IMG/VR virus record: IMGVR_UViG_3300007516_004456
Coordinates: 1 to 60,976 of that record
Source of the DNA: a virus
DNA length: 60,976 bases
Direction: 5' to 3' (one strand)
The notes below the pieces were generated by a model. The model had not been told where the DNA came from, ran no database searches, and saw only the letters and a list, made by a program, of their open reading frames with translations. The translations under genes and the position numbers were made by a program. Each line of letters opens with the position of its first letter. The first letter of the stretch is position 1. This document shows, one piece after another, positions 1,224 to 55,855 of this stretch.

Positions 1224-1224
1224 T

Positions 1225-28561: not shown

Positions 28562-29416
28562 ATGACTCAAGTGAAACTAGCGCAGATTTTTGAAGTAGAT
28601 GGTTATTTTGAGCCTACTAAGGTATCTCTCTATCTTAAACGAGCAGGATATAATTCTGCTAGCTATTTCGATTTGTCGGATGATCCATCTATTGATTCAA
28701 CTAATTTTTCTAGCATATCACAAGGTAATGGTAGCGTTTTAATTCTTGAAGATATCTATAGTGGATGGACAGGAAACGGTTATTTGTCTTACCAGAGTAT
28801 TGCTGGGTCTGGCACAGATGCTATAGTGAGATATCCGATTAGGGCGTCGTCTGCCGGAATATACGACTTATGGTTACGGTACAGATCGTCTGCTGGATCG
28901 TTTTCTGCGGATATCTATATCGATGGAAATTTCGTTCAAACGATAACAGAGGTTCCTCCTTCTACTGATTGGGAATGGATTCAGGGAAGTTTTGTTGTAC
29001 CGGACAGTGAAACGCATACGCTTGGAATAGTTTTGAAGGAATTAAATACCTCTTTAGACAAGATATACATTGCTGCCAATTCAACCGATCCAAGTAATGA
29101 GTATGGCGGACCAGCGTTGACTGCGAGTCCATTTATAACGGCTCATCTTCAGCTATACACTTTAACGAACGAAGTTGAGCCTAACAGTCCGTTATTGATT
29201 TATGACTATTCTACAACACTTAGCGATATAGTTGCTGACGGTTGGTATAATTTTGCTCTTACTATAATAGATGGCTCCTCTTATGATTTTGACTCTTCGT
29301 ATGCAATAGTTTTTTCTACTAGCGGAGGAGGAAGTAAAAATTATTTAATTTGGGAATTAGTAGATAACGATGAATATTTTGCAACTCCTTCTGCAATAAA
29401 ATTTGAAAATGACTGA
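28562..29416 (+). CDS. CBM-like beta-sandwich virion protein
   Basis: A 284-residue protein; ATG 28562 is chosen because a strong AAGGAG lies 5 nt upstream. Residues ~60-175 resemble a carbohydrate-binding module of the CBM6/CBM35 jelly-roll type: GYLSYQSIAGSGTDAIVRYP, then AGIYDLWLRYRSSAGSFSAD, IYIDGNFVQTI, WEWIQGSFVV and TLGIVLKE. This order (open face, Y-x-L-W-x-R, D-G, W-x-W) is typical, but the sugar-binding residues are not certain. The C-terminal ~90 residues form a second beta-rich domain, perhaps for virion attachment. The stop overlaps the start of the next giant gene by 8 nt. Glycan binding is an inference. Confidence 0.65.
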   Translation: MTQVKLAQIFEVDGYFEPTKVSLYLKRAGYNSASYFDLSDDPSIDSTNFSSISQGNGSVLILEDIYSGWTGNGYLSYQSIAGSGTDAIVRYPIRASSAGIYDLWLRYRSSAGSFSADIYIDGNFVQTITEVPPSTDWEWIQGSFVVPDSETHTLGIVLKELNTSLDKIYIAANSTDPSNEYGGPALTASPFITAHLQLYTLTNEVEPNSPLLIYDYSTTLSDIVADGWYNFALTIIDGSSYDFDSSYAIVFSTSGGGSKNYLIWELVDNDEYFATPSAIKFEND

Positions 29417-32400
29417 TATTAATAATAAAGACTATTATGGCGTTCAAGATGGTTCTTCGTCACTATCCGAAGATCAGTGGCATATCAACTACACTCAACG
29501 ACATGCATTTCGTATTTATAGCGATTTTGATTCTGTAGACGAAGATAACCGTAGAATCCTAACAGAAGCAGCAGACCCGCAGACTAATGTTGTTGACGAA
29601 TTCACATCTGGGGCATCTGATAAAGTTTTTGTTCAAACTAAAATTGTTAATGATAACGCAGGCGGAGAAAATATAGAGTTAAATTTAGATGATCGTATCT
29701 TGACTATTTTGATGGATCAAAGCGGGAGTATGACCTGGAACGATAATGAGGGGTTGCGGCATGATGTTGCCGAGCGAGTCGTTTATCGTCTTTCTTCTAC
29801 TTATCCTGGAGATTTGAAGTATAATTTGATCCAGTTTAACGGGAAACCAATCAACACAACAATTTTTGCCGTTAAGGAAAATGACAAGATAGACGTTAAT
29901 AATGTGCAGAGTTTGGCAACTCGGTTTTTCCGAGATGAAGAATCTCGTTTTGCTGGCGCTAGAGTTGTCCGTAGAGAAGGAACTTATCCTACGTCTCCTT
30001 TAGATGGTGCTGTTGTTTCAGAGGGATTTCTCTCTAAGTCTTTTGATGACGGATTAACAGAAGGAACGGAGTATTTCTATAAAGTATTCACGTTTGACAA
30101 GAATGGCACATTTAGTAACGGAGTCCCTGTCTCTGGTGTTCCGAGAAACAGAATTATTCCTCGTGGTGTTTCTCAGTTTGATGCAACGGTGCTTACTGGT
30201 ACTGGGGTATCTATAGATGACAATGTAATTGGAGCTTGGCATTTTGATGAAGGATCAGGTACTATATCTTTTGACTTTACAAACAACTCTAATAATTTGA
30301 TTAGTTTGGAAACAGAGCCAATTTGGTACAATCCTGAAGATGTTCCAATCGGCGTGTCTGGGGCAAGATATAACGGTAGTACTTCTGGATATGTGACGAA
30401 CGGTGGATCGTCTAATCTGGCGTTAAGTAGCGGTAATGATATGACTATCATGTTTTGGATTTACCCTTTCACTGCAACTGTAAATGAAGCTGTAATAGAA
30501 AGAACAGCATCGGTAGATGGAACAACAGACGTTAATTATTTTGTAGGAAGAACTCCTACAGGACAAGTTATCGTTGGTGTGGAGTCTGATCCTAGTTTAT
30601 TTATAAGTACTGCGACTCCTTTAGCAGTTAATGCATGGCATCATGTTACTGTTACTTTTACGGAAACGGCAGTACCGAATGAATGGAGTATTAGCTTATA
30701 TATTGATGGTTCTTTTCTTGAGTCAGGGACACAAACACTTTCATCCGCTCCTATTGATGATGATATTGCAATGGATTTATCTATTGGTCATCACTATGCA
30801 ACTGGTAGTGCGGCGCTTGGGTCTGTTGGTAATTTCTTTGGAAGGATTACTGAAGTTAGTATTCATAATGTTATTCGTAGCGCTGTATATATCGAGACAG
30901 CGGCGGAAGTTTTTGTTCCAACTTCTATTTTCGGGGCAGATCAAGAGCATATTACCAGACAAGATCAAGATAATTCGGATCGTTTGTTTGTTCTTAGATA
31001 TGAGGTTCCTAATGATTTTAATTACTCAGGTGGTGAGGTTAGAATTATTCGTAAGACACAAAAATATCCTTCTCACGAAAATGACGGAGATATAGTTGTT
31101 GCTGAAACCGCCACAGTGGGAGAACATTTTATAACCGATTCATTTCCGGTTGTGTTCGGAGAGACTTATTTTTACCGGATATTTTCTAAGAACTTTATTG
31201 GCAATTATAGTTATCTAACTGATTCTCCCTTAGCGAAAATAAAAATACCTGAAGCATCTGATTATCTTATTAGTACGCTTGACGATCTATCTCCTGATTT
31301 ATTAACGGTGAGTGGGTTGTCCACAACTCCAGGTAATCGTAAAATTTGGATAGAGTGGCTTAATCCAACGTTAGAAGATCGTTTTGCTCTAGTTAAAGTA
31401 TATTATGCTGATGATGGTTTCCCTGTTATTGAAGACGGAGAAGTTAGTAGTGGAGAATTGATTTTTAGTGGGACTCTTAATGAAGAGAGTTATGTACATC
31501 GCAATATAAATAATGCTGAAGGAGCATTTTATACTGTTGTTGTCACAGACCGTTTTGGGCGGATATCTAATACTGCCAATGTTAGCGAAATTCCATCTAA
31601 TAGCGTAGATGAATCTTCTATACCGTTATTAGATGTAGAAAATGTTCATTATGAAGTTGCAAATAATCAGGCTCTTACAATAAAATGGGATAATCCTATT
31701 GAATTTACGGCAGATATTGAAGGATTCTTCGATGATACTATTTTAGTGTATGCTGCTTTGACGGATGAATTTGGAGAATCCATTTCCGATGATACGAATA
31801 TAACAATGCGTGTGACTTCTATTTTGGGGACTTCGACACAGGCGGATGATGTTTTTGGAACGACGAGACCAGTAAAGATCGAAGTTAATGATACATATAC
31901 GTTTGCTGTTGCTAATCCGTCAAATGGAATTATCAAAGGCACTTTGAAGATGAATGGAGATATCAATGTTCTTTCTCAGATGGAACTTGTTGATTTTGAA
32001 ATTCAAGTATTTGCATTTGTTCCAGATACAACTAGTGAATTATTAAAAAACGGAAAATACTCAAAAAATCTGTTTGAGTTTTTATCTAAATCTGTAACTA
32101 TAAGACTGAGAAATCCTTGGTTTGTGAAATTGACAAATCGAGATGAAAAAATAATATCTCATCTTTGCCGAGTTCAGTCTGATATTTTTGCATTTACAAC
32201 TTTTGTCGATGACGATATCAAAATAGAAAAAAAGATATTTGATGGGGCTTACATCAGAGGAACAAGTCCATTTTATGCGAGAGTAGAGGTTAAGTGGAAA
32301 GACCTTCCATTAAACAGTGCATCTACTGTTTCTGCTCGTATTTATGATGCGACTATGAATTTATGTGATGATTTGAAGAAAAACAAACCCAGTAGACTAG

Positions 32401-35400
32401 GCTTAAGCTCTACTGTTGTTACCCCTCAACGTAGTTTTCCTATTCAAAGAGGAACAATAGACGTTCTTGATTCGAAAGGAGAGCCAACGGGATCAACTAG
32501 AGAGATTTCTTTTGTTGATATTCCTATATCTCCTCCAAACCAGCCACAAGCAGCGTATTTGATAGTGCAGTCTAGATATGGTGGCTACGTTTCAACTCAA
32601 GAGATGTATTTGGTATTTCAAAATATTTTACAGATAGAATTGGATGCTGAGGCTCCTGTTGGCGATGGAGTTGATATATCTGAGCAACGCGCTAGTATTT
32701 ATATTATTAATCCTGATTTCCCAGAGGATATCACAAAAAGGACTACCGTTCCTGATCTAACAACTGTTCGATGGCGGTTAGTTGTATCCGATTTTGGGCG
32801 TAATGACATCCCGTTCTATTCAACAGATAATGTTCCTGCCACCAATGGAGTATTTTCCTATGCTCGTGGCGGAAGCTCTCGTAACATTTTTGTCGGTCCA
32901 ACTCGTGCTATTATACATATAATAGCAACGCCAGCCGGGCCAGTTCTATCAGGAGAGAAGTATAAAATTTCATCTACTATTGTTTATGACGGATTGACTG
33001 CAACTGATGAGGCGTTACTTGAAGTGTTGCCGCCGGGACATAAAAACAGGTTTGGTTCTCGTTTTTTAATGGAGTTTCCTAAGTATAAAAATGAATTATG
33101 GTCGGACGGAGAAGATTACGAGAAACTAATTATTACTCATGACGCTAATAGTTCGATTACAAAATATTCTGGCTGTTTTCGTAGCTGTGCTTTGAGCTTT
33201 GGTAATGATGTTATTCCATTAGTTGCCAATCAAATTGTTGGGATATTTTTTCCTGAAGGATGGGAAGCTATTTGGGGCGATGTTACTGAAGTTGTTGATC
33301 CCTATACGGGAAAAACTACATTACAAATAGGACCGGACGCAGAAATATACCCTGCTGTAAATGGTACTGGGTCAGCTCAGGTTTCGATTATGGAAGATCA
33401 GGATAGTACTCCTGTTTATTTTCGGGTTAATAAATATTACCCTCCAGTGCAAGTTGTTCTGTCTGCTCAGGATTTGATTTCTGCTACTTTTTTAAATCCT
33501 TGTGAGTGTTTGGGTATTTTAGGAGACAAACTGCAACCTTATGAAGAATCTATTTCTGGGGCATCAACGATTTTAATTGACGAATCTACCTATAGTATTT
33601 ATGGAGGTGGAAGGATTGCATCCGGTGTGCCTCCAACAATTCTTGTCCCCAAAGAACCTCTCAATGTTAAAATTGTTGATAGGCGAGTAAATGGGGTTCC
33701 GTCAAATACAGTCGTATTTGACGGGGAGTCTGTTAATCAACTAATAGTTGAGGTTAGTTTTGCTGGTAATCCGGTACCAGACGGTACTCCTCTTTCTGTT
33801 TTTACGACAGATTCAAATGGTTTTTTTGTTATACCAGAAGATAAGGTTATTTATACGGAAACCAGAATCGAAGAGCTTATTGATCCAAATAATGCTCGTA
33901 GTTATGCAACTATTTCTTTAAAGCCTATTGTTCCGGTTGAGGAATTTACGGAGACAATTGTAGTTACTAGTAACTACAATAAAATTGGTGATGTTGAAAG
34001 GTTAATGGCTGACTGTTTGACGATAAGCTATAGCCCCGATGATCCAAGCGATGAGATACAAGATATTTTCAGTGGTCAATTAGATAGGTATGATATCGAT
34101 AGCGATTCTTGGGTTAATCTTGATAGTATGCAGAATCCAAGAGGCGATGTTATTTTTGAAGCAGTTAACGGTAAGATATATGCCATCGGCGGATTATCTA
34201 GATCTACAGTTAGCTCTATTAATGAAGAATATGATCCTCTCACCGGAGATTGGTCGGCTAAAGAAATTATGCCTACATCTCGCTTCTCTGCTGTGTCTGT
34301 CGTCTTTGACAGTAAGATATATGTTATTGGTGGCATTGAAATAGATAATGATAGTAGTGATCTAAATGTATCTAGGGCTTTGGAGAGGTACGATCCTGTA
34401 ACAGATGAATGGGATGTTTTGACAAATATGCCATCGATTGATGTTGGAGAGGTTGATGAATTTACTTATGGAGTTGCTTTTGGAGTTGCTGAGTACGCAA
34501 ATGTTGGGGGCAACGATAGGATATATGTTTTGTGCGGAGTCCGAGAAATTGACTCTAATGGGAGACCGTCTCAATATAATGATCGTGTTCTATATTATGA
34601 TATAGGAACCGATACATGGTTCTATTCTAGTGTTTTAAGCGATGAGGATTTGACATCATATCAGAGAATTGCGCCGCAGGGATTTGTTCGTAGCTCTGAC
34701 AGTAATCTATACGTTGTTGGAGGATTGTTTTCTCCTGTTGATAAACAGCCAGATTCAACTATGGCTCGCCAGCAGTCTATTTTACTGAAAGACGCATTCA
34801 GTATTAATGTTACAACTCTTGCATTGACTGTCTCTGATGGTGAATTTTATGATTTACCTGAACCTCGTTTCCGAGCTGCAACAGTAAAATTCAGTGACGA
34901 TGTATATTTCGTTGGCGGAGGAAATGACAGATCGCTATTTCGGCGAACATTTGAAAAAATAGATACTTCATCCGATCCAATGGATAAGTCCGTTTTGACT
35001 TCTATTCCTCATGGAAGATCATCCGTTGGTGTCGCTGTAGATACAGATGATTATGGGGATCACATTTATATAGTAGGAGGATATCAAAGTGGTCGTAGTG
35101 CAGGATTTTTACAAATAGGGGTAACTTCTTTATCTAGCTCTGATTCATTGGCTGATAGTTTACTTGGAGATGGAAATTGGTTTCGTCTTGACGGTAAAGC
35201 AACGGCTTCTGTTCTACTTAACTTAAAAGATCAATACGGAGACCCACCTGATAGCGATGTGACGGTTGTTGCTCGCGGCTATTTAGTTTTGTTGGATGAC
35301 AAAGGAAAAGCTATTAATGGATTACCGGGATCGAAATTTATAGATGGAAACGAAAAATATAAAACGGCAGCTGAAAAACTTCGCAATGATACGTTGATTT

Positions 35401-38327
35401 ATCCCGTATTATTTGCCCAGAACGAAATAGTTGTTAGTGGTGGCAGTGATATTGTAACGTTACTTTCTCGTTCTGATGATTTGCTTGCATCTCTTAAGGA
35501 TATCGCTGATGTTCTTGGGTTAAGTTCGCAGGATATTGGTATAAATATAAGTGATAAAGTAGAGCATGGATTACTAATAAAAAGTGGAGTTGTTCGTCGT
35601 CCTTACGATATTTTTGTGCAGTTAACCGTTGTAGATGATACTTATTTTGGTCAAACCGTAAATAATATTCCAGATATATCGGGAGGAGCCGGAGGAACAT
35701 TAGATGATGAACAAAATTCAAGAGGAACAGACCTTTCAATTATTCCGGAAATAGGAGACGGAATAAGATGTGTTAAGGTTTATGGAACAAATACATGGAA
35801 AGGATATTCTAGAGGAGACGATATATCCAGATCGGGCACCTTAACAAAAGCTTTAACCGCTTTAGAAGATGGAATTTCGGGATTTCTATTTGATCTTGTT
35901 CCTCCGGCTATAGGACAAGTTAGTAGCCCTGTATTTAATTCTTATGTGGATATAGATTGGGTACCACAGGTTGATAATATTATAGATGATAATTCTACGT
36001 CTGCCGCAGATGTTATTGAGCAGATAGATATTTTGCGCAATTCGATTCCATTTGGAGCTTCAGCTTTATTTGATGCGATGGTTAATGCGTCCGATCTGTT
36101 GGTTGATGAATCTTTAGATAACATCTATAAACACATATATATTTATACAGATAATGAGTCCAACATGTCGGCAGTGACAGCAGATGAAGCTCTAGAAGCG
36201 ATTCAGTCTATTGACGGTGAACGAAAAGTTTCTCTTGTTGTAGGCAACTATTCTATAGTATCTCCTGTTACTCTTTCTGCTAAAGCAAATAGAAGTGATA
36301 CGGAATCACTCGATTATATCGCTAGCCAGACAGGCGGTCAAACAATTACAGTGCTTTCTGCGGAATTTGAAGATGATATAGTCAATATTATGATTGGTCG
36401 AGTTTCAGGCTCGATGGGATTCGGTTCAGCTGATTTTGTGATTGACTTGGGGCAATCTTCAGTACTTGATACTATTCGTTCTTATTTCGATTTACCAACA
36501 AATACAAATTCTAATTGGTCAGTTCAATTTAGCGAAGATGGTTATAATTTTGTCAATGGAACGGATCAGCTGAAACCAGAAGTAGAATTGGATGTTTCGG
36601 ATATAACAGCTCGTTATTTGAAATTTCATATTGAATTGCTAACTGGATTTAGTAATTTTACGGATGAAGTTTACGAGGTAGTGCCTACCGCTTCATCTCC
36701 ATCTCTAACACATATCACCATATCCTATGGTGAGCCAAAAGATACTGAGCTGTTTTTTAATACGGAGACGGCATTAACGGTTCCGCAGCAAGTTGTTGTG
36801 TCAGTAAATTCAAACAATTTGACAACCAATATTATTCAGTCTGGAGTTTCTCAAACCAATTCTCATCAATGGCAAGACTTTTTTAGTGGGTCCAAGCGAA
36901 TTATGGGCAAAGACGGTAAAATGCTATTGCCTATTCGTGTATCTAATAACGAACCCATAGTTGGTCCTGAACCTCTAGTCAAAGTAGATAGACTTACATA
37001 TAGAGTAGCTCAGGGTAAATGGGAGCCTGGTGCTATTATTAAGATTTTAGATAGCAATAATAATATTATTCTCGATAGTTCGTATCAATTGTTTCCCCGT
37101 AAAGGATTAATTGTTTTTAGTGAACCTCCAAGTGGCAGCATGACCGCTCAGATTGAATTTGGAAATACTTTGCGTGTTGGAGTGAAATTTTTGAATATGA
37201 ATCCTAACCAGTCTATTGAAATAGATGGGATAGGGTATATGTACAATACCAATGTAAATCTATTGCCTCCAGCGGAGAAAATAGCGCCAATTGCTCAAAA
37301 TCTGATTATCACGCCTTCAGAACTTCACCTGTTTGACAAAATCACAGCTAGCTATGAATTTATTGACGCCAATAATGACGAAGAAGATACTGATGAGACA
37401 AAGATTAAATGGTACATCAACAATGTATATATTAGTTATTTAGATGGTCTGTTAATCTGGAATGATATAGATAATCGATCTGATCTTCTTTATACTAGAG
37501 CTTTTTCGTTTGATCCAGATGCTTTAGATGAGAACGAAACGGTTTTATTGACAGCTCGCCGTCTCGGTCAATCGATTTTGAAAGCAGGAGATCAATTGTA
37601 TTTTACGGTAGAGCCAAGTGACGGTCAACTGTTTGGTGATGTGGTTAAATCAGAAGTTATGACGGTTTATGAAGATAATCCGTTAATAGATCAAATTGTT
37701 ATTAGAGGGCTTGATCGTAATTCTAAATTAAAAAACACTATTACCGCAGCAGATTCAGCCGTTTTGCAATTTAATATAGTTGCTGATACTGGCTCTAATA
37801 ATTCAGTTGTAATTTGGTATGTTAACGATGAAGTTTTCAAGAATGGAACAATTAATGAAGATGGGATGAATAAGATTACGTCTGGAGAAGAAATTGGTGG
37901 CGTAATAGCTTTGAAAATGAACAATGAGATTCGAGTTGAAGTTACTCCTCAAACCGATGGAGCGATTGGAGAGACAGTATCTAGTGCTTCTGTTTTAATT
38001 GGTAATGCTAAACCAAAAGTTTTAATAGCAGTGATAAGCCCTTCTGTTCCATCCGCTTCTCAGAATTTGTCTTTGGTATATCAGTTCGAAGACGCTGACA
38101 TTCAGATATCTTTAGATCTCAACCAAGATAATCTTTCTGTAGTGAAATGGTATAAGTCTGTGCTTAGTTCTTCATCAGGATTTTTGGAAATTGAAAGTCT
38201 TAGAGGAAAAACATCTGTGCCTTCGTCATCAACTAGTCGAGGGGAGTTTTGGAAAGCAGAAGTGACACCGTATGACGGAATTGATTTTAATGATCCAGTT
38301 TCAAGTAATGTTGTACTGATAAGGTAA
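29409..38327 (+). CDS. Largest virion protein: split VWA, FN3, LamG, Kelch, F5/8C-like and Ig repeats
   Basis: A 2,972-residue protein; ATG 29409 is preferred over the in-frame TTG at 29403. Order of modules: first half of a VWA domain with the MIDAS motif DQSGS (D103) and strand YNLIQFNG; FN3-like (~175-250); LamG (~272-495, with NAWHHVTVTF); FN3-like repeats to ~720; beta-rich sequence; Kelch propeller (~1555-1890, for example KIYAIGGLSRS, KIYVIGGIE, HIYIVGGYQSG); the complementary half of a VWA domain (GASALFDAM ~2216, IYTDNESN with D2248); an F5/8C (discoidin)-like domain (~2335-2425, VIDLGQSSVLDTI to ARYLKFHI); and three Ig-like repeats to the end. No signal peptide or membrane span is seen. 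An adhesin or baseplate hub role is inferred from module content and neighbours. Confidence 0.75.
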   Translation: MTDINNKDYYGVQDGSSSLSEDQWHINYTQRHAFRIYSDFDSVDEDNRRILTEAADPQTNVVDEFTSGASDKVFVQTKIVNDNAGGENIELNLDDRILTILMDQSGSMTWNDNEGLRHDVAERVVYRLSSTYPGDLKYNLIQFNGKPINTTIFAVKENDKIDVNNVQSLATRFFRDEESRFAGARVVRREGTYPTSPLDGAVVSEGFLSKSFDDGLTEGTEYFYKVFTFDKNGTFSNGVPVSGVPRNRIIPRGVSQFDATVLTGTGVSIDDNVIGAWHFDEGSGTISFDFTNNSNNLISLETEPIWYNPEDVPIGVSGARYNGSTSGYVTNGGSSNLALSSGNDMTIMFWIYPFTATVNEAVIERTASVDGTTDVNYFVGRTPTGQVIVGVESDPSLFISTATPLAVNAWHHVTVTFTETAVPNEWSISLYIDGSFLESGTQTLSSAPIDDDIAMDLSIGHHYATGSAALGSVGNFFGRITEVSIHNVIRSAVYIETAAEVFVPTSIFGADQEHITRQDQDNSDRLFVLRYEVPNDFNYSGGEVRIIRKTQKYPSHENDGDIVVAETATVGEHFITDSFPVVFGETYFYRIFSKNFIGNYSYLTDSPLAKIKIPEASDYLISTLDDLSPDLLTVSGLSTTPGNRKIWIEWLNPTLEDRFALVKVYYADDGFPVIEDGEVSSGELIFSGTLNEESYVHRNINNAEGAFYTVVVTDRFGRISNTANVSEIPSNSVDESSIPLLDVENVHYEVANNQALTIKWDNPIEFTADIEGFFDDTILVYAALTDEFGESISDDTNITMRVTSILGTSTQADDVFGTTRPVKIEVNDTYTFAVANPSNGIIKGTLKMNGDINVLSQMELVDFEIQVFAFVPDTTSELLKNGKYSKNLFEFLSKSVTIRLRNPWFVKLTNRDEKIISHLCRVQSDIFAFTTFVDDDIKIEKKIFDGAYIRGTSPFYARVEVKWKDLPLNSASTVSARIYDATMNLCDDLKKNKPSRLGLSSTVVTPQRSFPIQRGTIDVLDSKGEPTGSTREISFVDIPISPPNQPQAAYLIVQSRYGGYVSTQEMYLVFQNILQIELDAEAPVGDGVDISEQRASIYIINPDFPEDITKRTTVPDLTTVRWRLVVSDFGRNDIPFYSTDNVPATNGVFSYARGGSSRNIFVGPTRAIIHIIATPAGPVLSGEKYKISSTIVYDGLTATDEALLEVLPPGHKNRFGSRFLMEFPKYKNELWSDGEDYEKLIITHDANSSITKYSGCFRSCALSFGNDVIPLVANQIVGIFFPEGWEAIWGDVTEVVDPYTGKTTLQIGPDAEIYPAVNGTGSAQVSIMEDQDSTPVYFRVNKYYPPVQVVLSAQDLISATFLNPCECLGILGDKLQPYEESISGASTILIDESTYSIYGGGRIASGVPPTILVPKEPLNVKIVDRRVNGVPSNTVVFDGESVNQLIVEVSFAGNPVPDGTPLSVFTTDSNGFFVIPEDKVIYTETRIEELIDPNNARSYATISLKPIVPVEEFTETIVVTSNYNKIGDVERLMADCLTISYSPDDPSDEIQDIFSGQLDRYDIDSDSWVNLDSMQNPRGDVIFEAVNGKIYAIGGLSRSTVSSINEEYDPLTGDWSAKEIMPTSRFSAVSVVFDSKIYVIGGIEIDNDSSDLNVSRALERYDPVTDEWDVLTNMPSIDVGEVDEFTYGVAFGVAEYANVGGNDRIYVLCGVREIDSNGRPSQYNDRVLYYDIGTDTWFYSSVLSDEDLTSYQRIAPQGFVRSSDSNLYVVGGLFSPVDKQPDSTMARQQSILLKDAFSINVTTLALTVSDGEFYDLPEPRFRAATVKFSDDVYFVGGGNDRSLFRRTFEKIDTSSDPMDKSVLTSIPHGRSSVGVAVDTDDYGDHIYIVGGYQSGRSAGFLQIGVTSLSSSDSLADSLLGDGNWFRLDGKATASVLLNLKDQYGDPPDSDVTVVARGYLVLLDDKGKAINGLPGSKFIDGNEKYKTAAEKLRNDTLIYPVLFAQNEIVVSGGSDIVTLLSRSDDLLASLKDIADVLGLSSQDIGINISDKVEHGLLIKSGVVRRPYDIFVQLTVVDDTYFGQTVNNIPDISGGAGGTLDDEQNSRGTDLSIIPEIGDGIRCVKVYGTNTWKGYSRGDDISRSGTLTKALTALEDGISGFLFDLVPPAIGQVSSPVFNSYVDIDWVPQVDNIIDDNSTSAADVIEQIDILRNSIPFGASALFDAMVNASDLLVDESLDNIYKHIYIYTDNESNMSAVTADEALEAIQSIDGERKVSLVVGNYSIVSPVTLSAKANRSDTESLDYIASQTGGQTITVLSAEFEDDIVNIMIGRVSGSMGFGSADFVIDLGQSSVLDTIRSYFDLPTNTNSNWSVQFSEDGYNFVNGTDQLKPEVELDVSDITARYLKFHIELLTGFSNFTDEVYEVVPTASSPSLTHITISYGEPKDTELFFNTETALTVPQQVVVSVNSNNLTTNIIQSGVSQTNSHQWQDFFSGSKRIMGKDGKMLLPIRVSNNEPIVGPEPLVKVDRLTYRVAQGKWEPGAIIKILDSNNNIILDSSYQLFPRKGLIVFSEPPSGSMTAQIEFGNTLRVGVKFLNMNPNQSIEIDGIGYMYNTNVNLLPPAEKIAPIAQNLIITPSELHLFDKITASYEFIDANNDEEDTDETKIKWYINNVYISYLDGLLIWNDIDNRSDLLYTRAFSFDPDALDENETVLLTARRLGQSILKAGDQLYFTVEPSDGQLFGDVVKSEVMTVYEDNPLIDQIVIRGLDRNSKLKNTITAADSAVLQFNIVADTGSNNSVVIWYVNDEVFKNGTINEDGMNKITSGEEIGGVIALKMNNEIRVEVTPQTDGAIGETVSSASVLIGNAKPKVLIAVISPSVPSASQNLSLVYQFEDADIQISLDLNQDNLSVVKWYKSVLSSSSGFLEIESLRGKTSVPSSSTSRGEFWKAEVTPYDGIDFNDPVSSNVVLIR

Positions 38328-43286: not shown

Positions 43287-46247
43287 ATGCCTGAACAAAA
43301 TTCTATTCAGCTGCGAATAACGCATAATTCGACTTTCGTAAACGGTCGTCTCGATAAACAGGTTTATCAGTCTCTTCGCAAAGCGATTGGATATACACCA
43401 GAAACTGCACGTTGGATGCAGTTTAAGCATCCAAAGTGGGATGGTCATATTTCTTGTGTTTGCTATAGTAGAAAGTATTGTAAATGTTTTATTAAAAAAG
43501 ATGGTACTCATTTCCCTACTGGATTATTATGGAAAGCGAGAGAGATTTTTGATAACTTTAATATTTCTTATTCTATTGTTGATAGTCGTTCTACGGTAAA
43601 AAAGACAATCTCTTTTTCGATGTCGGATACGTTCGAGTTAAGAGATTACCAGCAAAAGGTTGTCGATATCGCAGTTAAAAAAGAGCGAGGTATTATTCGC
43701 ATGGCGACCGGCAGTGGAAAAACCGCTTGTTCTGCTCATATTATTGCTAAGCTTGGTGTGTCTCCTTTTATATTTTATGTACCTTCAAAAGATTTATTAT
43801 ATCAAGCTAAGAATGAGTTTGAATCTTTTTTAAGACAAAATGGATTACCAATTGAGGTAGGAATTATAGGAGGTGGGCATAAAAATATTAAACCAATCTC
43901 TGTAATGACTATTCAAACGGCGGTTAGAGTTTTAGGAACAAAATATAAAAAAGTTGACGAAGAAGATCAAGACGATGATACGGACATTGATGATATCAAA
44001 CAGGATATCAGAGATTTGATTCGTTCTTCTAAGGGCATAATTTGTGACGAAGTACAGCATTGGGCAGCAGATACATGTCAGATTATTGCTGATGCATCTG
44101 AAGAATGTCGTTATCGTTATGGGATTTCTGCAACTCCATGGCGAGATATGAATGACGATATTTTGATTGATGCGTGTTTTGGTAAAATTATTGCGGATAT
44201 TAATGCATCATTTCTGATCGATAGAGGATTTTTGGTGCCTCCTGAGATATTTTTTATTCCTGTAGGAAATATGCGAGGGATTAAATTAACTAGTTATCCA
44301 GAAGTTTATCAGACAGCAATTGCGGAAAATGATCTTCGAAATTATTGGATTGCCAATCTTGCTCAGGTAATGAAACAGAACGGGAAAACAGTTCTTGTTC
44401 TTTGTCGTCTTATTAATCATGGTAATCTATTAGAGTCTTTGATTCCTGGTAGCGTATTTTTGCATGGAAGTGTTTCTGGGAAGAAAAGGCAAGAGCATTT
44501 GCAGTTGATGAGAGAAAAAAAGGCTCCAGTAACAATCGCAACCTCTTTGCCGTTCTGCGAAGTCATTCCTGTTAGGATTAAAGGGTTTGTTCGTTTGATA
44601 CAAATTGGGCATCTGGTAGAAAACCTGCATACAATAGTGTCAGAAGGTTACGTGGAAGCATTATGTTCTTTGGACGGTAAATCTGCTATCTGGCAAAAAA
44701 TTACAGGATTACATAAACATAAGCGGATGAATACTGTAAAAAGAGTACTAACAGATTATAATGAAGAAGTTTTGGTCACTGAAAATCATTCGCTTGTTGA
44801 TTACAACAAGGATCAAGTTAAACCAACGGTAGGAGGTTTAGCTAGTTGTCCTGTTTTTAATGAGTCTATAAGTTCGTCTACACTAATTGATTCAATTGAT
44901 CTTGTTGATTTGTTATCTTCGTTAGATGATCGGTCTATAGAGGTCGAATTACTTGGCCTTACTCAACCTATAATGAGAAAGTTGCGTACGTGGAATAAAT
45001 ACTGGACTGGTAATCATGTATGCAAAAATTCACGTCTTGCTGCGGATAGATACATTAAAGACAAAGGGAATGACTATAAAATAGCAATTAAACAGCTTAT
45101 AGATCATTTTTCTTACGAAAAAGGAAAAATGCGAGCTAAATTAGTTGATCTTAAAAATTGCAAAACAATATTTGATTTTTTTGAAGCAAGGATTTTTATA
45201 AGGCGTAGTAGAAAAGGGTTTTTTCTGCCAATACGGTTGCCGGTGACACGTGATTTGGCAATTTTATCGGGGTTAATGTGTTCTGAAGGACATATAAATG
45301 AAGCGTCATGCAAGACGTGTCGATCAAGATTCGATTGGATTTTCACTGGGCTATTACATAATGTTGACTCATCTGAGGGAAAGCATGATATTGATAAGAA
45401 AAACATACGTCAGATATTTAAATCTGCTTTTTATGGTTCTATTGGTAATTTTCATTTAATTGAAAACGATAAACAGATCAAGTTTAACAGTAAGTTGATG
45501 TATTTATTATTTCAGTCAATGGGACATATTAATTTAGACAGAGAGAAAAGAGTCCCTGATTATGTTTTTAATTCTAGTAGAGAAATTCAAGAGGCTTATT
45601 TATGGGGAGTGTATTTGGGAGATGGGAGCAAAAGATTAGATTATAGACCAGGCAAAAAAAAGTCTGATATTTTTAGTGCGTTGATTATATCTAGTTCTAG
45701 TCGAGAGATGGTTAGCGGTATAGTAATGTTATTGAAAATGATGGGTAAAAAATATTATATTACATATCAGCACGCTCATGGTCGCACTAAAAAAAGATAT
45801 CAAATATGTATTGGAGATTCTATAGACAAGTTACATCCAACTCGTTTGTTAGATAAAATAGGCAGTTCTACATTTGAACGAATACAAAGCGTTGTTGAAG
45901 ATACAGATATTTTAGATGATTATGTTTATGATATCACCGTAGAAAATTCCCATAATTTTGTTGCTGGAGTTGGATGTGTTTTGTGTCATAACTCGATTTT
46001 TGATGAAGGAATTGACTGCAAACCACTTGATACGCTTATACTTGCCGGTTCAGGGAAAAGTGCGACTCGTGCTTTGCAGCGTATTGGTAGATGTTTACGT
46101 CCGTATCCCGGAAAACAGTCTGCGACTATTATTGACTTTGAAGATCGTTGCAAATTTATGTTAAAGCACAGTAATCGTCGTAAAAAGATTTATCAGACAG
46201 AGCCTCGTTTTGCGATTAAATATATGGAAATAGATCAACCTAAATGA
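43287..46247 (+). CDS. UvsW-like SF2 DNA helicase, interrupted by an intein
   Basis: A 986-residue precursor. The helicase part has a Cys-rich N-terminal segment (CVCYSRKYCKC), ELRDYQQ, motif I MATGSGKT (139-146), motif II DEVQ, motif III SATPW, motif V ATS-IFDEGID and motif VI QRIGRCLR. An intein of about 483 residues (420-902) splits motif V; removing it rejoins TIAT with SIFDEGID and leaves about 503 residues, close to the size of T4 UvsW. UvsW-type helicases remodel stalled forks and recombination intermediates with ATP. The stop overlaps the following methyltransferase gene (ATGA). The name uvsW is not assigned because only motifs were read. Confidence 0.85.
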   Translation: MPEQNSIQLRITHNSTFVNGRLDKQVYQSLRKAIGYTPETARWMQFKHPKWDGHISCVCYSRKYCKCFIKKDGTHFPTGLLWKAREIFDNFNISYSIVDSRSTVKKTISFSMSDTFELRDYQQKVVDIAVKKERGIIRMATGSGKTACSAHIIAKLGVSPFIFYVPSKDLLYQAKNEFESFLRQNGLPIEVGIIGGGHKNIKPISVMTIQTAVRVLGTKYKKVDEEDQDDDTDIDDIKQDIRDLIRSSKGIICDEVQHWAADTCQIIADASEECRYRYGISATPWRDMNDDILIDACFGKIIADINASFLIDRGFLVPPEIFFIPVGNMRGIKLTSYPEVYQTAIAENDLRNYWIANLAQVMKQNGKTVLVLCRLINHGNLLESLIPGSVFLHGSVSGKKRQEHLQLMREKKAPVTIATSLPFCEVIPVRIKGFVRLIQIGHLVENLHTIVSEGYVEALCSLDGKSAIWQKITGLHKHKRMNTVKRVLTDYNEEVLVTENHSLVDYNKDQVKPTVGGLASCPVFNESISSSTLIDSIDLVDLLSSLDDRSIEVELLGLTQPIMRKLRTWNKYWTGNHVCKNSRLAADRYIKDKGNDYKIAIKQLIDHFSYEKGKMRAKLVDLKNCKTIFDFFEARIFIRRSRKGFFLPIRLPVTRDLAILSGLMCSEGHINEASCKTCRSRFDWIFTGLLHNVDSSEGKHDIDKKNIRQIFKSAFYGSIGNFHLIENDKQIKFNSKLMYLLFQSMGHINLDREKRVPDYVFNSSREIQEAYLWGVYLGDGSKRLDYRPGKKKSDIFSALIISSSSREMVSGIVMLLKMMGKKYYITYQHAHGRTKKRYQICIGDSIDKLHPTRLLDKIGSSTFERIQSVVEDTDILDDYVYDITVENSHNFVAGVGCVLCHNSIFDEGIDCKPLDTLILAGSGKSATRALQRIGRCLRPYPGKQSATIIDFEDRCKFMLKHSNRRKKIYQTEPRFAIKYMEIDQPK
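44544..45992 (+). mobile_element. Intein with LAGLIDADG endonuclease in SF2 helicase motif V
   Basis: A protein-splicing element of 483 codons. The N-terminal splice block reads SLPFCEVIPVRIKG, so residue 1 is probably Ser rather than Cys; starting at the later Cys would leave SLPF in the spliced helicase. Block B is EVLVTENHSLVDY. The C-terminal blocks read YVYDITVENSHNFVAG and CHN before Ser+1. Two LAGLIDADG-like helices, LSGLMCSEGHI (precursor residue ~660) and LWGVYLGDGSK (~772), indicate a homing endonuclease that could spread the element. Confidence 0.85.
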
Positions 46248-48305: not shown

Positions 48306-48818
48306 ATGAGTACAGACAGTAGTATCGTTGCAAATGACGCTATTCGAGCATCAACCGTATTAGTTATTTCACCAGAAGGAGACAACCTTGGCGAGTTCAA
48401 TCGTCTTGCTGCGATATCTAAAGCAGGAGAGTTCGATCTTGATCTAGTTCAAGTTTCTCCATCGAATAATGGAACTCCGCCAGTATGTAAAATTATTGAT
48501 CTCGGCAAATATAAATACGAGATAAAGAAAAAACAACATCGTAAGCAAGTTAGACAGGACACTTCTTTGAAGGAGATTCGTGTTCATCTTCATACAGCAG
48601 AGCATGATTTGAATATTAAACACAAACGTATATCTGATTTTCTAATTAAACGCCATCCGGTTAAATATACTATGGACCTAAAAGGTTCCGAGCGAAGATT
48701 TATAGAAAAAGCAAAGCAACAAGTTGAGAATAATATTTCCCTATTTTCGGATGTTGCTACTTGGGATGATATTAGTGTTAGCGGAAGGCGGATTTCAACA
48801 ATTCTAAAACCGCAATAA
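48306..48818 (+). CDS. infC: Translation initiation factor IF-3 (phage-encoded)
   Basis: A 170-residue full-length IF3. The N-terminal domain has the conserved run FDLDLVQVSPSNNGTPPVCK followed by IIDLGKYKYEIKKKQ. The C-terminal domain has LKEIRVHLHTAEHDLNIKHK, then DLKGSERRF. IF3 binds the 30S subunit, prevents premature 50S joining and checks the start codon and initiator tRNA. Bacterial infC often uses AUU and autoregulates; here the start is ATG, so that control is probably absent. A phage copy would bias initiation toward phage mRNAs, many of which lack clear Shine-Dalgarno sequences here; this is inference. No ribosomal protein genes follow, unlike bacterial infC-rpmI-rplT operons. Confidence 0.93.
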   Translation: MSTDSSIVANDAIRASTVLVISPEGDNLGEFNRLAAISKAGEFDLDLVQVSPSNNGTPPVCKIIDLGKYKYEIKKKQHRKQVRQDTSLKEIRVHLHTAEHDLNIKHKRISDFLIKRHPVKYTMDLKGSERRFIEKAKQQVENNISLFSDVATWDDISVSGRRISTILKPQ

Positions 48819-48838: not shown

Positions 48839-48869
48839 TGTTAAATTGCGTTGCTTAACATTGCAATTT
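48839..48869 (+). promoter_or_regulatory. Two overlapping, mutually exclusive inverted repeats before the AAA+ gene
   Basis: TGTTAA (48839-48844) can pair with TTAACA (48855-48860), or AAATTGC (48843-48849) can pair with GCAATTT (48863-48869). The two stems compete for the same bases. The second ends immediately before the Shine-Dalgarno GGAG (48870-48873). The short 61-bp leader could be an operator or a translation switch. No T-run follows, so it is not a typical terminator. Confidence 0.35.
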
Positions 48870-48879
48870 GGAGACAGAT

Positions 48880-50529
48880 ATGGTGATCGACGAATTAACC
48901 GCCGAAGAGTGCGCAAAGCTGCTGTCCAAAATGGGGACTGAGGAGTTTACACAAGATTTTACAGCTCTTCTAAAAAGTCGATATCCACTTATATATATTG
49001 TAAACAATGAAGAACAGCGACTTATTCGTTATCTTCAATATCTTTCACGGTCTAAGGGTTATCGCATATACATATGGAATTGCGTAGATGGTCTATGCGA
49101 CATAGGCAGCGGAAATGTCGTTAATGCCGTTACAGAAGATATTAAGGATCCCGATGTTGTTTTGGATAAAATTATTGAGGAATCTGAGAACGAAGAATAT
49201 AATCAAAATCTTCGAAACGCAGGCATTAATGGCTCTATTTATGTATTGTTGGATTTCCATAGATTTATAGATGGAGCTGCGCCTGATACTGAAAGAAGAA
49301 TTAAAAAGATTACGCAAACGGAATCCATGACTCAGGTTATTGTGACCGGACCTTTCTATAAAGCAACACCGACACTTGAAGACCTTTTTGCTGTTTTAGA
49401 TTTTCCTCTTCCGAATGAAATAGAAATAGCTAATACTCTTTACAATATAGTTGATGCTGTATCCAGCAAATTGCCTACTTTAAGAAAGAAAACAAAAGCT
49501 AGGGAAGAAGAATTAATAAAAGCTGCATCCGGATTAACTCTTATGGATGCGCAGAGTGCGTACTCCAAATCTATTGTCCGTCATAAGACTTTTGATATAC
49601 CGACCATTTTGAAAGAAAAGAAACAGATCATTCGCAAAAAAGGGATTCTAGAGTATTTTGATTCTCATGTGACTATGGATGATGTTGGAGGTCTTGATAC
49701 GATGCGAGAGTGGTTTGTGCGTCGTAAACTGGCATTTAGTTCTGAGGCTCAGAAATTTGGACTCAAACAGCCAAAGGGAGTGCTAATGATCGGGACTCCA
49801 GGAAGCGGCAAAAGCTTGTCCGCTAAAGCTTGTGCTAGCTTATTTGAGATGCCATTGCTTCGTATGGATTTTGGCGCATTATTCGGGTCTTTAGTTGGAG
49901 AATCTGAGGGGACAACTAGAGACGCACTGAAGCTCGCAGAGGCTATTTCCCCTTGTTGTTTATGGATGGACGAAGTTGAAAAAGGATTGTCTGGGGGAAG
50001 CTCCAGCGGCTCTACAGATGGAGGTACGACTTCTCGTGTTATTCAAACTATTTTGACTTGGATGCAAGAGAAAGAAAAACCAGTTTTTGTTGTTTGTACG
50101 GCAAATGACTATGAACGCATTCCTCCAGAATTTATGAGGGCAGGCCGTTTTGATGAGGTGTTTTTTATAGATTTACCTACGCCACCAGAGCGAGTTGATA
50201 TTTTCCGTGTGTTAATTAAAAGAGCTAAAAGAGAACCAGAAAATTTTAACCTTCCTGAGCTTGCATCTGAATCTGAGGGTTATAGCGGTGCTGAGATTGA
50301 AAAATCTATTGACGAAGCAATATCAATGGTGTATCAAGATAGTAGGGGCAAAAAGGATATTGAGCAAAGTGATATTATATCTGCACTAAAAAGCTTTAAG
50401 CCGCTTTCGACGATTCGATCTGATTATTTTGAGAAAATCAGGGAGTGGGCACAGAGTAATTGCAGACTAGCTAATCGATCTCCAGAAAAGAAAGTAAAGG
50501 GATCAGGTAAGATAGATCTCGATGTATAA
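48880..50529 (+). CDS. Ycf46-type AAA+ ATPase
   Basis: A 549-residue protein. ATG 48880, six nt after GGAG, is preferred over TTG 48868. The N-terminal domain resembles Ycf46 proteins (RYPLIYIVNNEEQRLIRYLQ, then IYIWNCVDGL). The AAA+ core has DDVGGLDTMREWFVRRKLAF, Walker A GTPGSGKS (305-312), pore-like FGSLVGESEG, Walker B LWMDEVEKG (D364/E365), a sensor-type VCTANDYERIP and RAGRFDEVFFIDLP. Ycf46 is conserved in cyanobacteria and plastids and has been linked to photosynthesis and carbon use. Its role in a phage is unknown; remodelling of replication or virion complexes is possible. It overlaps the putative helicase-loader gene by 8 nt. Confidence 0.85.
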   Translation: MVIDELTAEECAKLLSKMGTEEFTQDFTALLKSRYPLIYIVNNEEQRLIRYLQYLSRSKGYRIYIWNCVDGLCDIGSGNVVNAVTEDIKDPDVVLDKIIEESENEEYNQNLRNAGINGSIYVLLDFHRFIDGAAPDTERRIKKITQTESMTQVIVTGPFYKATPTLEDLFAVLDFPLPNEIEIANTLYNIVDAVSSKLPTLRKKTKAREEELIKAASGLTLMDAQSAYSKSIVRHKTFDIPTILKEKKQIIRKKGILEYFDSHVTMDDVGGLDTMREWFVRRKLAFSSEAQKFGLKQPKGVLMIGTPGSGKSLSAKACASLFEMPLLRMDFGALFGSLVGESEGTTRDALKLAEAISPCCLWMDEVEKGLSGGSSSGSTDGGTTSRVIQTILTWMQEKEKPVFVVCTANDYERIPPEFMRAGRFDEVFFIDLPTPPERVDIFRVLIKRAKREPENFNLPELASESEGYSGAEIEKSIDEAISMVYQDSRGKKDIEQSDIISALKSFKPLSTIRSDYFEKIREWAQSNCRLANRSPEKKVKGSGKIDLDV

Positions 50530-51369: not shown

Positions 51370-54288
51370 ATGAATGTAACAGATAATTATAAAGAGCAAA
51401 AGATTCAGAATGAACGTAAGTTCATGAATCTGTTACTTAAAAATCAAGAACTTATTGACGACTATCTAGATAGTGGGATGGATGTTAATTTTTTCGAAGA
51501 AGATCATCGCCATTTTCTTAGATCAATGGTGTATGCTGCTCAAAAAGGATTCCATCTTACCGAAAGTTCATTTGATGATTATCTGAAAAAAGTTGTTACC
51601 AATATAGAAAGGCAAGCTCATCTTAATCTTTTTGATGAAATTGCTTCTGATGCCAATGATAGAGACGATTTTCCATCATTGATGAATAAAATCATTGAGA
51701 ATCACGTGAAGTCTCAGACGATGGAGTTCATGTTTGAATACGAGAAAGACGCTAAACATAAAAGTAGTATTATTGCTGCTCGTAAACTAAAAGAGAAACT
51801 AGATGGATTAGTTTCTGAGTCAGTATCTAACCGTAAAATTGTTTATGCTGATATACGAGAAATTTCCAAAACAGTTTACGAAGAAATAGCTGATGATTTG
51901 GATAATCCGAACAAATCAGAAGAAGCGGTTATTGTTTCGGGTATTAAAGAGATAGACCATATTCTTAGCGCTGGGTTTGAGGCAGGCAGTATTACTTTGT
52001 TTTGCGGCGATACCGGAGGATTCAAGTGTGGATGGTACAAGAATTTACATCAAATAGTCGGTGGGGAGCGTATCGATCTAGAAGAAATTCACAAGAGAGT
52101 TTCTGCTGGACAGACTGTATTTTTACAGCAATTGAACGAATCGACTGGAAAAATTATTACACAGCCAGTCTCCGCATCTTTTGATTCTGGTGTTAAGTAC
52201 TGCTATCGTATTACTACTAGTTTAGGACATGAGATTGTTGCAACGGCTGAACATCGACATCGCTTGTTTGATGGATATCAGAGAGTTAGTGCGATTTCTG
52301 CCGGAGATTATTTAGCTATTACGAGACGAACGGAAATGGGAGATGTTCAAGCATCTCACTCAGAAGCATTGTTTTTGGGGCTATTAATAGCAGAAGGTTC
52401 TACTGTTAGTGGTTGTCGTTTTACTAATTATGATGCTGATATCGTATGGAATATGCGAAGATCGTGTATTGATCTCGGTGGCAGTATGATCTGTAAACAC
52501 AAAAATAAAGTAAGGATCAAGGGGCAATATGAAGTACGAGATCTTTACGCAATTGTTGATAATTACGGTCTGAGGGGATGCAAATCTGTTAATAAAACCG
52601 TCCATTCATCTGTTTTTAGATGGAATAATCAATCTATATCTATAATGCTGCATGCAATGTTCAGTTGTGATGGACGATTTTTGGTTGAAATCAGCAAAAA
52701 ACATCAATATAAGATTGGGAAAAGAAAAGGTGAGGGTAAACGTAAATACAAAATAATGTATTGTACTTCATCGAATCAATTAGCTAAAGATGTTAGAGAT
52801 TTGTTATTAAGATTTGGAATTATCGCATCAATATTTGAATATAATTCTTACTATAAAGGTACTAACGGAGATAGACAGGTGGAAGGTCCGTCATGGCGTG
52901 TTGAGATTAGTGATGCTACTCAAATTATTAAATTCATCAAAGAAATCGGATTTATTGGCAAAAAGCAAAAATTAGCATTAAAGCATTTGTCGTATCTCGA
53001 AGAAATTATTAACAATCCTAATAGAGATATTATTCCATCTGCTGTTTGGAATATTATTGATCGTAAGTTTAAGGAATATGGTAAATCTAGAACTGGTTGT
53101 CGTCGTTTTTATAGAAAAGACGTACATTCTAACTGGAAAAAAGATTTAGGACATTGCGGGAGTCTTAAAAAGTCTATGAGCCGAGACTGTTTGAGAAAAA
53201 TATCTCATTATCTAGATGACGATGCAGAGTTATTAACAATTGCTAATAGTGATGTTTACTGGGATAGAGTTGTTTCTATCGAACCTATTGGATTACAGCA
53301 AACTTATGATTTATCAATGCCTGGTGATCATAATTTTGTTGCAAACAATATAGTAACGCATAATTCTACTATGATGATGAATTGTGCGTTGAATATATGG
53401 AAAGTCCAGCATAAAAATGTTCTTTACATACCTTTAGAAATGCCGCAAAAGCTTGTAATGTGCAAGATTTTATCTCGTGAAACAAAAGTTCTTTTTGAGC
53501 ATTTGATCCGTCCGTCTAGAATTGGTTTAGGTAATCCTGAAGAAGAAAAAGCAAAAGCACGAGAAATAATTAAGGGAAAGATAAAAAAAGAAATTGATTC
53601 ATGGGATCAAAAGGAAGGTAGTTTATTCTTGATGGACTGTATTTCGGAACGAGCTAAAGTATCCGTTTTACAGAGAGAAATTGAAAAACATTTGGAGATA
53701 TTTAATCCTGATTTGGTGGTTGTGGATTACATTGCGAATCTAGAGCCTGACAAATCACGCAGTGACCGTAATGATCTTGAAATTGGTGAGATTCTCTATG
53801 CTTTACAGCATTATGGACACGCTATGAGCTTTGCTGTTATTTCAGGAGCTCAAGTCGGAAGAGAAGCACTTAAAAGGCATCGTAAAGCAGGCGGTGAAAA
53901 TATTCAATTTTTCTCTGAAGACGTTCGAGGGTCACACGAGTACAGCTCTATTGCAGATAATATTTTCTTTCAGATGAAAGATGAGAATCAGCCTAATGAG
54001 CGATTGAATATTACGGCCGTCAAATCTCGTTGGGGTCCAACTGTATTTTTGAATGGTGAATCATCAGCTACTTTGTATGTCAATCCGGCAATTGGTCTTA
54101 TTACCAGTGCTAAACCGCAATATGAGTCAGATGATACCGGAGACATCCTTGATAAAGTAAATAATACGATTACTGATGAGCTTGATTTTGAATTTGATGA
54201 GTCCGAGCCAGAAAATCTGATGGAAGATGGAATTGATGTTGTTCCAGAAGATGATTTTGATAAGGAAATATTCAGTGGAAAGAAATAG
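51370..54288 (+). CDS. dnaB: DnaB-type replicative helicase, interrupted by an intein
   Basis: A 972-residue precursor; removing the intein leaves about 526 residues. The N-terminal helical domain (FMNLLLKNQELIDDYLDSGM) is followed by a RecA-fold core starting GIKEIDHILSAGFEAGSIT. The P-loop GDTGGFK-ST is split by the intein between Lys and Ser and has Phe in place of the usual Gly before Lys. Then come VLYIPLEMPQKL, Walker B LVVVDYIANL and VISGAQVGREA. DnaB hexamers unwind DNA ahead of the fork and recruit primase. The tail is acidic. The gene is flanked by the putative loader and by a CHC2 primase domain, consistent with a primosome operon. Confidence 0.9.
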   Translation: MNVTDNYKEQKIQNERKFMNLLLKNQELIDDYLDSGMDVNFFEEDHRHFLRSMVYAAQKGFHLTESSFDDYLKKVVTNIERQAHLNLFDEIASDANDRDDFPSLMNKIIENHVKSQTMEFMFEYEKDAKHKSSIIAARKLKEKLDGLVSESVSNRKIVYADIREISKTVYEEIADDLDNPNKSEEAVIVSGIKEIDHILSAGFEAGSITLFCGDTGGFKCGWYKNLHQIVGGERIDLEEIHKRVSAGQTVFLQQLNESTGKIITQPVSASFDSGVKYCYRITTSLGHEIVATAEHRHRLFDGYQRVSAISAGDYLAITRRTEMGDVQASHSEALFLGLLIAEGSTVSGCRFTNYDADIVWNMRRSCIDLGGSMICKHKNKVRIKGQYEVRDLYAIVDNYGLRGCKSVNKTVHSSVFRWNNQSISIMLHAMFSCDGRFLVEISKKHQYKIGKRKGEGKRKYKIMYCTSSNQLAKDVRDLLLRFGIIASIFEYNSYYKGTNGDRQVEGPSWRVEISDATQIIKFIKEIGFIGKKQKLALKHLSYLEEIINNPNRDIIPSAVWNIIDRKFKEYGKSRTGCRRFYRKDVHSNWKKDLGHCGSLKKSMSRDCLRKISHYLDDDAELLTIANSDVYWDRVVSIEPIGLQQTYDLSMPGDHNFVANNIVTHNSTMMMNCALNIWKVQHKNVLYIPLEMPQKLVMCKILSRETKVLFEHLIRPSRIGLGNPEEEKAKAREIIKGKIKKEIDSWDQKEGSLFLMDCISERAKVSVLQREIEKHLEIFNPDLVVVDYIANLEPDKSRSDRNDLEIGEILYALQHYGHAMSFAVISGAQVGREALKRHRKAGGENIQFFSEDVRGSHEYSSIADNIFFQMKDENQPNERLNITAVKSRWGPTVFLNGESSATLYVNPAIGLITSAKPQYESDDTGDILDKVNNTITDELDFEFDESEPENLMEDGIDVVPEDDFDKEIFSGKK
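52027..53364 (+). mobile_element. Intein with LAGLIDADG endonuclease in the DnaB P-loop
   Basis: A protein-splicing element of 446 codons (precursor residues 220-665), starting with Cys (CGWYKNLHQIVGGERI) and ending LQQTYDLSMPGDHNFVANNI, then VTHN before Ser+1. Block B is HEIVATAEHRHRLFD. LAGLIDADG-like motifs FLGLLIAEGS (~335) and LHAMFSCDGRF (~427) mark the homing endonuclease. Splicing is needed to restore the ATP-binding loop, so helicase activity depends on it. Confidence 0.9.
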
Positions 54289-55052: not shown

Positions 55053-55855
55053 AACTTAATCATATATATAATAAATCCTGTGAGGATATGAGTGATTTAG
55101 ATGATGGATCAATTGATCTTATTGTCACTAGCCCTCCGTATTTTAATCTTAAAGAGTATTCTCAGTGGGATACATATGATGATTATCTTTGGTGGATAGA
55201 CGGGGTGATACTAGAATGTTATAGAGTTTTGCGACCAGGTGGATGGGTTTGCTGGAATGTGCAGGACAGTATTCCGTTCCCTCCTAGACTTTCTGCTGGA
55301 GAACGATATTCTGAGGCTTTGGCTTCTGATTCTATTAAAATGTTACAATCAGCTGGATTGTTTTATGAGAAAAGTATAGTTTGGTATAAGGGACAAGGGA
55401 CTGCTACCCAGCGTCTATTTGGTTCTTACCCTAGACCCGGTTTACTGTTAGTTAGTGGTTTGACTGAACATATTATTTTATGTAGGAAGCATAGAGGCAA
55501 ATACAAAAGAAAGATAACAAAAGATATTGAAACAAAAAGCTTACTAACTAAAGATGAATGGTCAAAATGGACACTTGATCTTTGGACGATATCGCCAGAA
55601 TCATCAAAAAGAATAGGGCATCCTGCTCCGTTCCCTGTAGAAATTCCATATCGTTTAATTAGGATGTTTTCATTTTACGGAGATGTTATATTAGAGCCAT
55701 TTTTGGGCAGCGGCTCAACAGCACTTGCGGCTAAGAAGGCAGGCAGGAATTTTATTGGATATGAAACAAGTAAGAAATATATAAAAATCGCTAAAGATAG
55801 AATTAGCTCGGTAGTAGATATTTTCGGAGATAAAAATGACAAAAACAATTTCTAA
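55049..55855 (+). CDS. Beta-class DNA methyltransferase (N4-cytosine or N6-adenine)
   Basis: A 268-residue enzyme with motif IV TSPPYFNLKEY (SPPY 28-31) near the N-terminus and the AdoMet motif EPFLGSGSTALAAKKAGRNF from residue 216 near the C-terminus, the order of beta-class enzymes. SPPY is more common in N4-cytosine enzymes, but N6-adenine activity cannot be excluded. A short basic linker (KHRGKYKRKI) separates them. It lacks a restriction partner. The gene couples to its neighbours by 4- and 20-nt overlaps. Confidence 0.88.
   Translation: MKLNHIYNKSCEDMSDLDDGSIDLIVTSPPYFNLKEYSQWDTYDDYLWWIDGVILECYRVLRPGGWVCWNVQDSIPFPPRLSAGERYSEALASDSIKMLQSAGLFYEKSIVWYKGQGTATQRLFGSYPRPGLLLVSGLTEHIILCRKHRGKYKRKITKDIETKSLLTKDEWSKWTLDLWTISPESSKRIGHPAPFPVEIPYRLIRMFSFYGDVILEPFLGSGSTALAAKKAGRNFIGYETSKKYIKIAKDRISSVVDIFGDKNDKNNF

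Follow-up and report, generated by a model that had tools for sequence, protein, structure and literature searches.

The VWA domain is a textbook compact metal-dependent adhesion module. An ORF in a viral genome fragment raises the question of whether one such domain can be put together from two segments lying about 2,000 residues apart, as had been suggested from the bare sequence: an N-terminal segment with the DxSxS motif and first strands, a distant segment with the later MIDAS elements, and the intervening domains looped out. The fragment, termed the window, is the whole stretch of DNA analysed, an IMG/VR virus record of 60,976 bases.

The window and the ORF

Judging from its gene content (a DnaB-type helicase, a primase zinc ribbon, IF3, several inteins and DNA methylases), the window is part of a very large phage-like genome. 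The ORF with both VWA halves lies at 29409..38327 on the plus strand, as do all features described within it, and encodes a protein of 2,972 amino acids, known from its translation and 17 homologous records and numbered here from the ATG at 29409. Very large multidomain proteins with FG-GAP, FN3, LamG, VWA and Ig-like domains surround it; the flanks consist of multidomain binding-type proteins and, after the ORF, glycosyltransferases, and an AAA gene at 48868-50529 (PF00004 match) is ten kilobases off. This AAA ATPase matches phrog_8638, of unknown function, with 449 bits over almost its full length. Elsewhere in the window, six FG-GAP repeats (8.1e-42) occur in the 2,084-aa product of 1216-7470, which adjoins a weak NHL/propeller-type protein. 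LAGLIDADG-bearing inteins occur in each of 43287-46247, 51370-54288 and 56345-58285, all within one 60-kb window, the hosts being a ResIII/DEAD helicase, a DnaB-like helicase and a DNA methylase, respectively. A divergent translation initiation factor IF-3 is encoded at 48306-48818 and has counterparts in 47 other viral contigs, while the ORF at 55836-56327 carries INILKRDGYT three times in tandem at its C-terminus. The 926-aa product of 8899-11679 has an N-terminal VWA domain without interruption (residues 11-129, Pfam VWA 24.6 bits); a single stretch of it spans PF00092 positions 1-122, and it served as a contiguous control.

The insert between the VWA halves of the giant protein, residues 151-2162 (29859..35894), was assigned by Pfam and the homologue alignment to FN3-like, LamG, further unassigned and Kelch domains. 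As the halves were defined for joining (residues 88-158 and 2163-2340), they are 2,004 residues apart; the wide gap that had been claimed is present, and its figure of about 2,100 residues was slightly too high. Laminin_G_3 covers residues 326-492 (30384..30884; 46.1 bits, cut-off 27.6). The Kelch propeller (34074..35129) has its Pfam hits within residues 1556-1773 (Kelch_1, 2.9e-20), and its end at about residue 1907 was set from the gene break in relatives, where their ORF1 ends. Both the LamG and Kelch domains of the original prediction were thus confirmed by Pfam and the FN3-like one by fold, and the layout is kept in 17 other records. For the FN3-like domain after the first half, the alignment to FN3 structures starts only at about strand C. 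Strands A and B may correspond to PINTTIFAV (within 29859-30158) or to two predicted strands at 77-91; the latter, modelled before VWA strand 1, could possibly make the FN3-like domain a second interleaved domain. Right behind the second VWA part, VIA-align detected an F5/8C (discoidin/CBM32-like) sandwich at residues 2336-2443 (36414..36737), with Z about 8 to CBM32 and F5/8C chains (model 257-364). No recognised enzyme domain was found in the 2,972-aa protein.

Two parts of a VWA domain

The first part, residues 88-150 (29670..29858; core at ~93-146), comprises strand 1, DxSxS, helix 1 and strand 2, as indicated by Pfam VWA_2, by PF00092 profile positions 2-49 and by AF2. In the translation, DQSGSM begins at residue 103 and is followed by YNLIQF, in agreement with the MIDAS motif first noticed there. 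Pfam analysis of the full protein matched VWA_2 to residues 99-158 (profile positions 2-59 of 107), within the first half, and gave no VWA match in the second; in the PF13519/PF00092 test this match of the native protein, at 22.1 bits, was below the 27-bit cut-off. An AF2 model of residues 24-270, built from an alignment of 18 sequences (mean pLDDT 57), exhibited strand 1, helix 1 and strand 2 only, followed by FN3-like strands; model elements E73-80, H90-108 and E113-120 are residues 96-103, 113-131 and 136-143. In a fold search with this model, the matches were taken up by the FN3 domain, not the VWA part.

The second part, residues 2163-2332 (35895..36404; core at ~2185-2332), comprises helices 2-3, strand 4, helix 4, strand 5, helix 5, strand 6 and helix 6, the evidence being PF00092 positions 59-159 when joined, a PDB profile search, AF2 and VIA-align. 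GASALFDAM starts at residue 2216 and TDNESN at 2247, where the later MIDAS side had been placed. Alone, this half was too weak for single-sequence Pfam detection. When a profile of 14 homologues was searched against the PDB, seven hits were obtained up to E=10 and every one was a VWA protein, the best being GBS104 (E=0.005), with RrgA and TRAP also among the matches; searched alone, the segment therefore did not match a non-VWA fold. The AF2 model of residues 2080-2625 (15 sequences, mean pLDDT 58) had a VWA part consisting of helix, helix, strand, helix, strand, helix, strand and helix with no further strand, its strands being only strands 4-6 with their helices. By VIA-align, model positions 106-252 (window residues 2185-2331) were superposed on the VWA region beyond strand 2, with matches to TFIIH p34 111-238 (Z 10.8, rmsd 2.3, 128 aligned), the bacterial VWA 4fx5 (Z 9.9), the inter-alpha-inhibitor heavy chain, the CD11b I domain and vWF A3. 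The inter-alpha-inhibitor match, 334-474, is beyond residue D298 named in the entry title. Foldseek alone, with the larger model, gave mainly beta-sandwich and integrin chains with poor superposition.

In the separate AF2 models, both of modest confidence, neither half was a complete fold, so that an outcome of two separate complete folds was not obtained. Combined, the two models contain the element order beta1-alpha1-beta2, then alpha2-alpha3-beta4-alpha4-beta5-alpha5-beta6-alpha6, with strand 3 lacking a certain assignment. The proposed search of the joined segment against VWA profiles was performed with Pfam, and both VWA families exceeded their cut-offs: residues 88-158 fused to 2163-2340 scored 29.5 bits for VWA_2 (cut-off 27) and 28.3 bits for PF00092 (cut-off 23.8), with the first half covering positions 2-49 and the second 59-159 of the 174 PF00092 positions. 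Decoys were equal-length segments from the same 2,972-aa protein. The first half fused to any of four decoys scored 12.9-14.9 bits for PF00092 and 23.5-24.3 for VWA_2, and a decoy fused to the second half had no Pfam match; the true join exceeded the decoy joins by 13-15 bits on PF00092. These results supported the proposal of one VWA in two halves, which are complementary both on the profile and in the predicted fold. They also illustrate that profile scans miss domains whose halves are far apart, the whole protein staying under the VWA cut-offs.

Homologues and conservation of the MIDAS residues

Direct searches with the protein or its parts found no relatives among isolated phages except for Kelch or FN3 repeats, and single-sequence scans of viral contigs did not find them either. 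Because direct searches failed, the phage IF3 gene was used to reach huge-phage contigs; these records were searched, and a three-protein alignment led to 16 loci and then two more. Homologues are carried by 17 further viral records, with identities to the window protein of about 25-37%; one short pattern found no homologue in 84,980 cellular (bacterial or archaeal) genomes. Gene order on both sides is kept in nearly all of the records, and the homologues are therefore orthologues. No match to phage sheath, Baseplate_J or terminase families was detected in 12 related records, and the protein could not, therefore, be placed beside known tail genes. With the joined profile, the first half was detected in 18 records and the second in 17 (window included), one copy each; the record without a second half (L070) ends inside the gene. 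The halves were contiguous in none of the homologues and were 1,749-2,119 residues apart where both were complete. In L062 (same contig as L056), protein P0003 has a dockerin-like double motif, DLTGDGSVDSADF...GDLDGDGAITVKDM, at ~1290-1350, where other homologues have a short loop.

All three MIDAS elements of a VWA domain were found, distributed over the two parts. DxSxS after strand 1 is D103-x-S105-G-S107 (DQSGS, residues 103-107, 29715..29729), its D, S and S being invariant in all homologues. The Thr/Ser of the helix 2-helix 3 loop is Ser2218 (GASAL, 36060..36062), a Ser in every case and never a Thr, and the aspartate after strand 4 is Asp2248 (TDNE, 36150..36152); both are invariant among the 17 aligned sequences. 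All five residues are thus invariant in 17/17 sequences covering both halves (window included), while invariant positions make up only 4.1% of the protein overall, and the first half is its best conserved stretch. Covariation between the segments, another of the proposed checks, did not bear out the pairing. In a distance-matrix analysis the partial r was at first 0.39, higher than in all 37 control windows; this value was not robust across other windows and subsets, and rate covariation was dropped as support.

Division of the gene in seven relatives

Seven of the related viruses (L059, L060, L066, L067, L069, L071 and L072) have, in place of one ORF, an adjacent pair of about 2,000 and 1,000 residues. 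The break is at the same place in 7/7, directly behind the Kelch propeller, equivalent to residues ~1907/1908 (35127..35132) of the window protein. The first VWA half is consequently on one chain and the second on another, with all MIDAS residues kept. From ORF1 stop to ORF2 start, the distance ranges from -11 to +8 bases; the stops are TAA, TGA and TAG; and ORF2 is never in frame with ORF1, both alternative frames being represented. Such variety of stops, spacing and frames makes sequencing error, readthrough or a single conserved frameshift unlikely. In the tree, the seven group as one clade with a support of 1.0, which is most simply explained by one fission event. In L059 (16116-16305), ORF2 begins with an ATG at 16116, and its codon 62 is an in-frame TAA, the same frame continuing beyond; this TAA may be either a real break or a sequence error.

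Discussion

These findings make it likely that one VWA domain is rebuilt across an insertion of ~2,000 residues and, in one clade, across two chains. In the proposed assembly, the chain would exit a single VWA (integrin I-like) after strand 2 and re-enter before helix 2, with ~2,000 residues of FN3-like, LamG, Kelch and other domains between exit and return. A shared sheet would be formed by strands 2-1 from the first half and 4-5-6 from the second, and one MIDAS site by D103, S105 and S107 together with S2218 and D2248. In the two-gene clade, the products of the adjacent genes would build this VWA together. In the VWA fold, strands 1, 2 and 4 are parallel, with their ends at the MIDAS face; a chain inserted behind strand 2 would therefore exit beside the metal site. 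From the complementarity of the halves, their conservation and the fission pattern, we infer that they are in physical contact; metal binding and the role discussed below are likewise put forward as inferred. The original prediction of one enormous insertion holds for the window protein and fails for the clade of seven: there the halves are on two polypeptides, and hence no intrachain insertion exists. The clasp of that prediction serves as an image only.

LamG, Kelch, FN3-like and F5/8C-like domains are typical of binding proteins. On this domain content, and with a place in the virion suggested by context, the protein would be a virion surface arm with its ends held by the VWA, which might act as a joint for both ends of a long adhesive arm, and its metal face may bind a ligand. 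There is a somewhat better than even chance that the VWA exists only once assembled, from two polypeptides in the seven viruses or from the two ends of one 3,000-residue chain, each supplying half of the sheet and part of the metal site; the metal-bound domain would then be a latch by which a giant virion arm is closed or linked.

Pairing between subunits could occur even in the single-gene viruses, the first half of one copy with the second half of another, so that domain swapping would tie neighbouring chains into an oligomeric fibre. Such pairing would be one mode of the assembly described above and is compatible with it. The seven relatives with halves on different polypeptides favour it, since there the halves would have to be able to pair in trans, but the near-constant insert length (1,749-2,119 residues) suits cis pairing equally well, and in the single-gene viruses it appears rather unlikely. 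It is improbable that the segments are relics of one interrupted VWA, each now a small separate module without a joint metal site. The weakness of the second half by itself in Pfam would fit this reading, but both pieces retain their MIDAS residues, five in all, even in proteins with as little as about 25% identity, no other stretch of the protein is conserved as well as the first half, and separate pieces would each expose a central sheet strand (strand 1 or strand 4). Less probable again is that the two-gene arrangement reflects a sequencing artefact or a single protein made by programmed frameshifting; the in-frame stop at codon 62 of L059 ORF2 is a point in its favour, but seven contigs with three stop codons, gaps of -11 to +8 and both alternative start frames, broken always at the same domain border and forming a monophyletic clade, argue for a divided gene. 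A chance likeness between unrelated folds, suggested by the modest single-sequence scores, is scarcely credible in view of the decoy controls, the VWA-only profile matches, the fold match to the right part of a VWA and the conservation.

If a single VWA is indeed rebuilt in this manner, the protein would be a natural split-protein system, maintained in very divergent viruses and then divided by a gene fission in which every metal-site residue was kept, and would provide a direct test of the coding distance tolerated between the halves of a cooperative fold. It would possibly also be a metal-controlled joint in a virion appendage. Within the literature covered, to which subscription journals contributed little, no description was found of a split VWA, of an interruption on such a scale, of a gene-divided VWA or of such a phage protein.

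Comparison with known systems

Among the closest parallels are the armed-VWA pilus-tip adhesins. In the RrgA/GBS104/Mfa5 type, the VWA sits between strands B and C of an isopeptide-bonded Ig-like domain. These adhesins (RrgA, 2ww8; GBS104, 3txa/3tvy; PilB; Mfa5) likewise have a MIDAS VWA with inserts beside the metal face, and the second half has its closest PDB sequences in GBS104 and RrgA. In the adhesins, the inserts measure about 38 residues where they interrupt a beta strand and 98-123 residues between strand 4 and helix 4 (PMC7835359; PMC8179133), whereas here the stretch from strand 2 to helix 2 takes in ~2,000 residues with several complete domains, and one clade divides the domain between two genes. 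The ARM2 insertion of RrgA, GBS104 and Mfa5 is absent here, the connection from strand 4 to helix 4 being 10 residues in the model (E163-168, H179-187).

According to a review, the VWA proteins of jumbo phages are MoxR cochaperones and Ter proteins (PMC7824862). The MoxR AAA+/VWA pairs are also VWA proteins of large phages, but they are cochaperones paired with a MoxR ATPase (PMC7824862), whereas the VWA described here is part of a giant multidomain protein. It also differs from the VWA of the window's own ORF 8899-11679, from the same genome region, which is uninterrupted. The inserted I domains of integrin alpha chains and TRAP have the fold and MIDAS in common with it, TRAP being a PDB match and the CD11b I domain a fold match. 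In integrins and TRAP, however, the VWA is a contiguous module, while in the giant phage protein it is the interrupted host.
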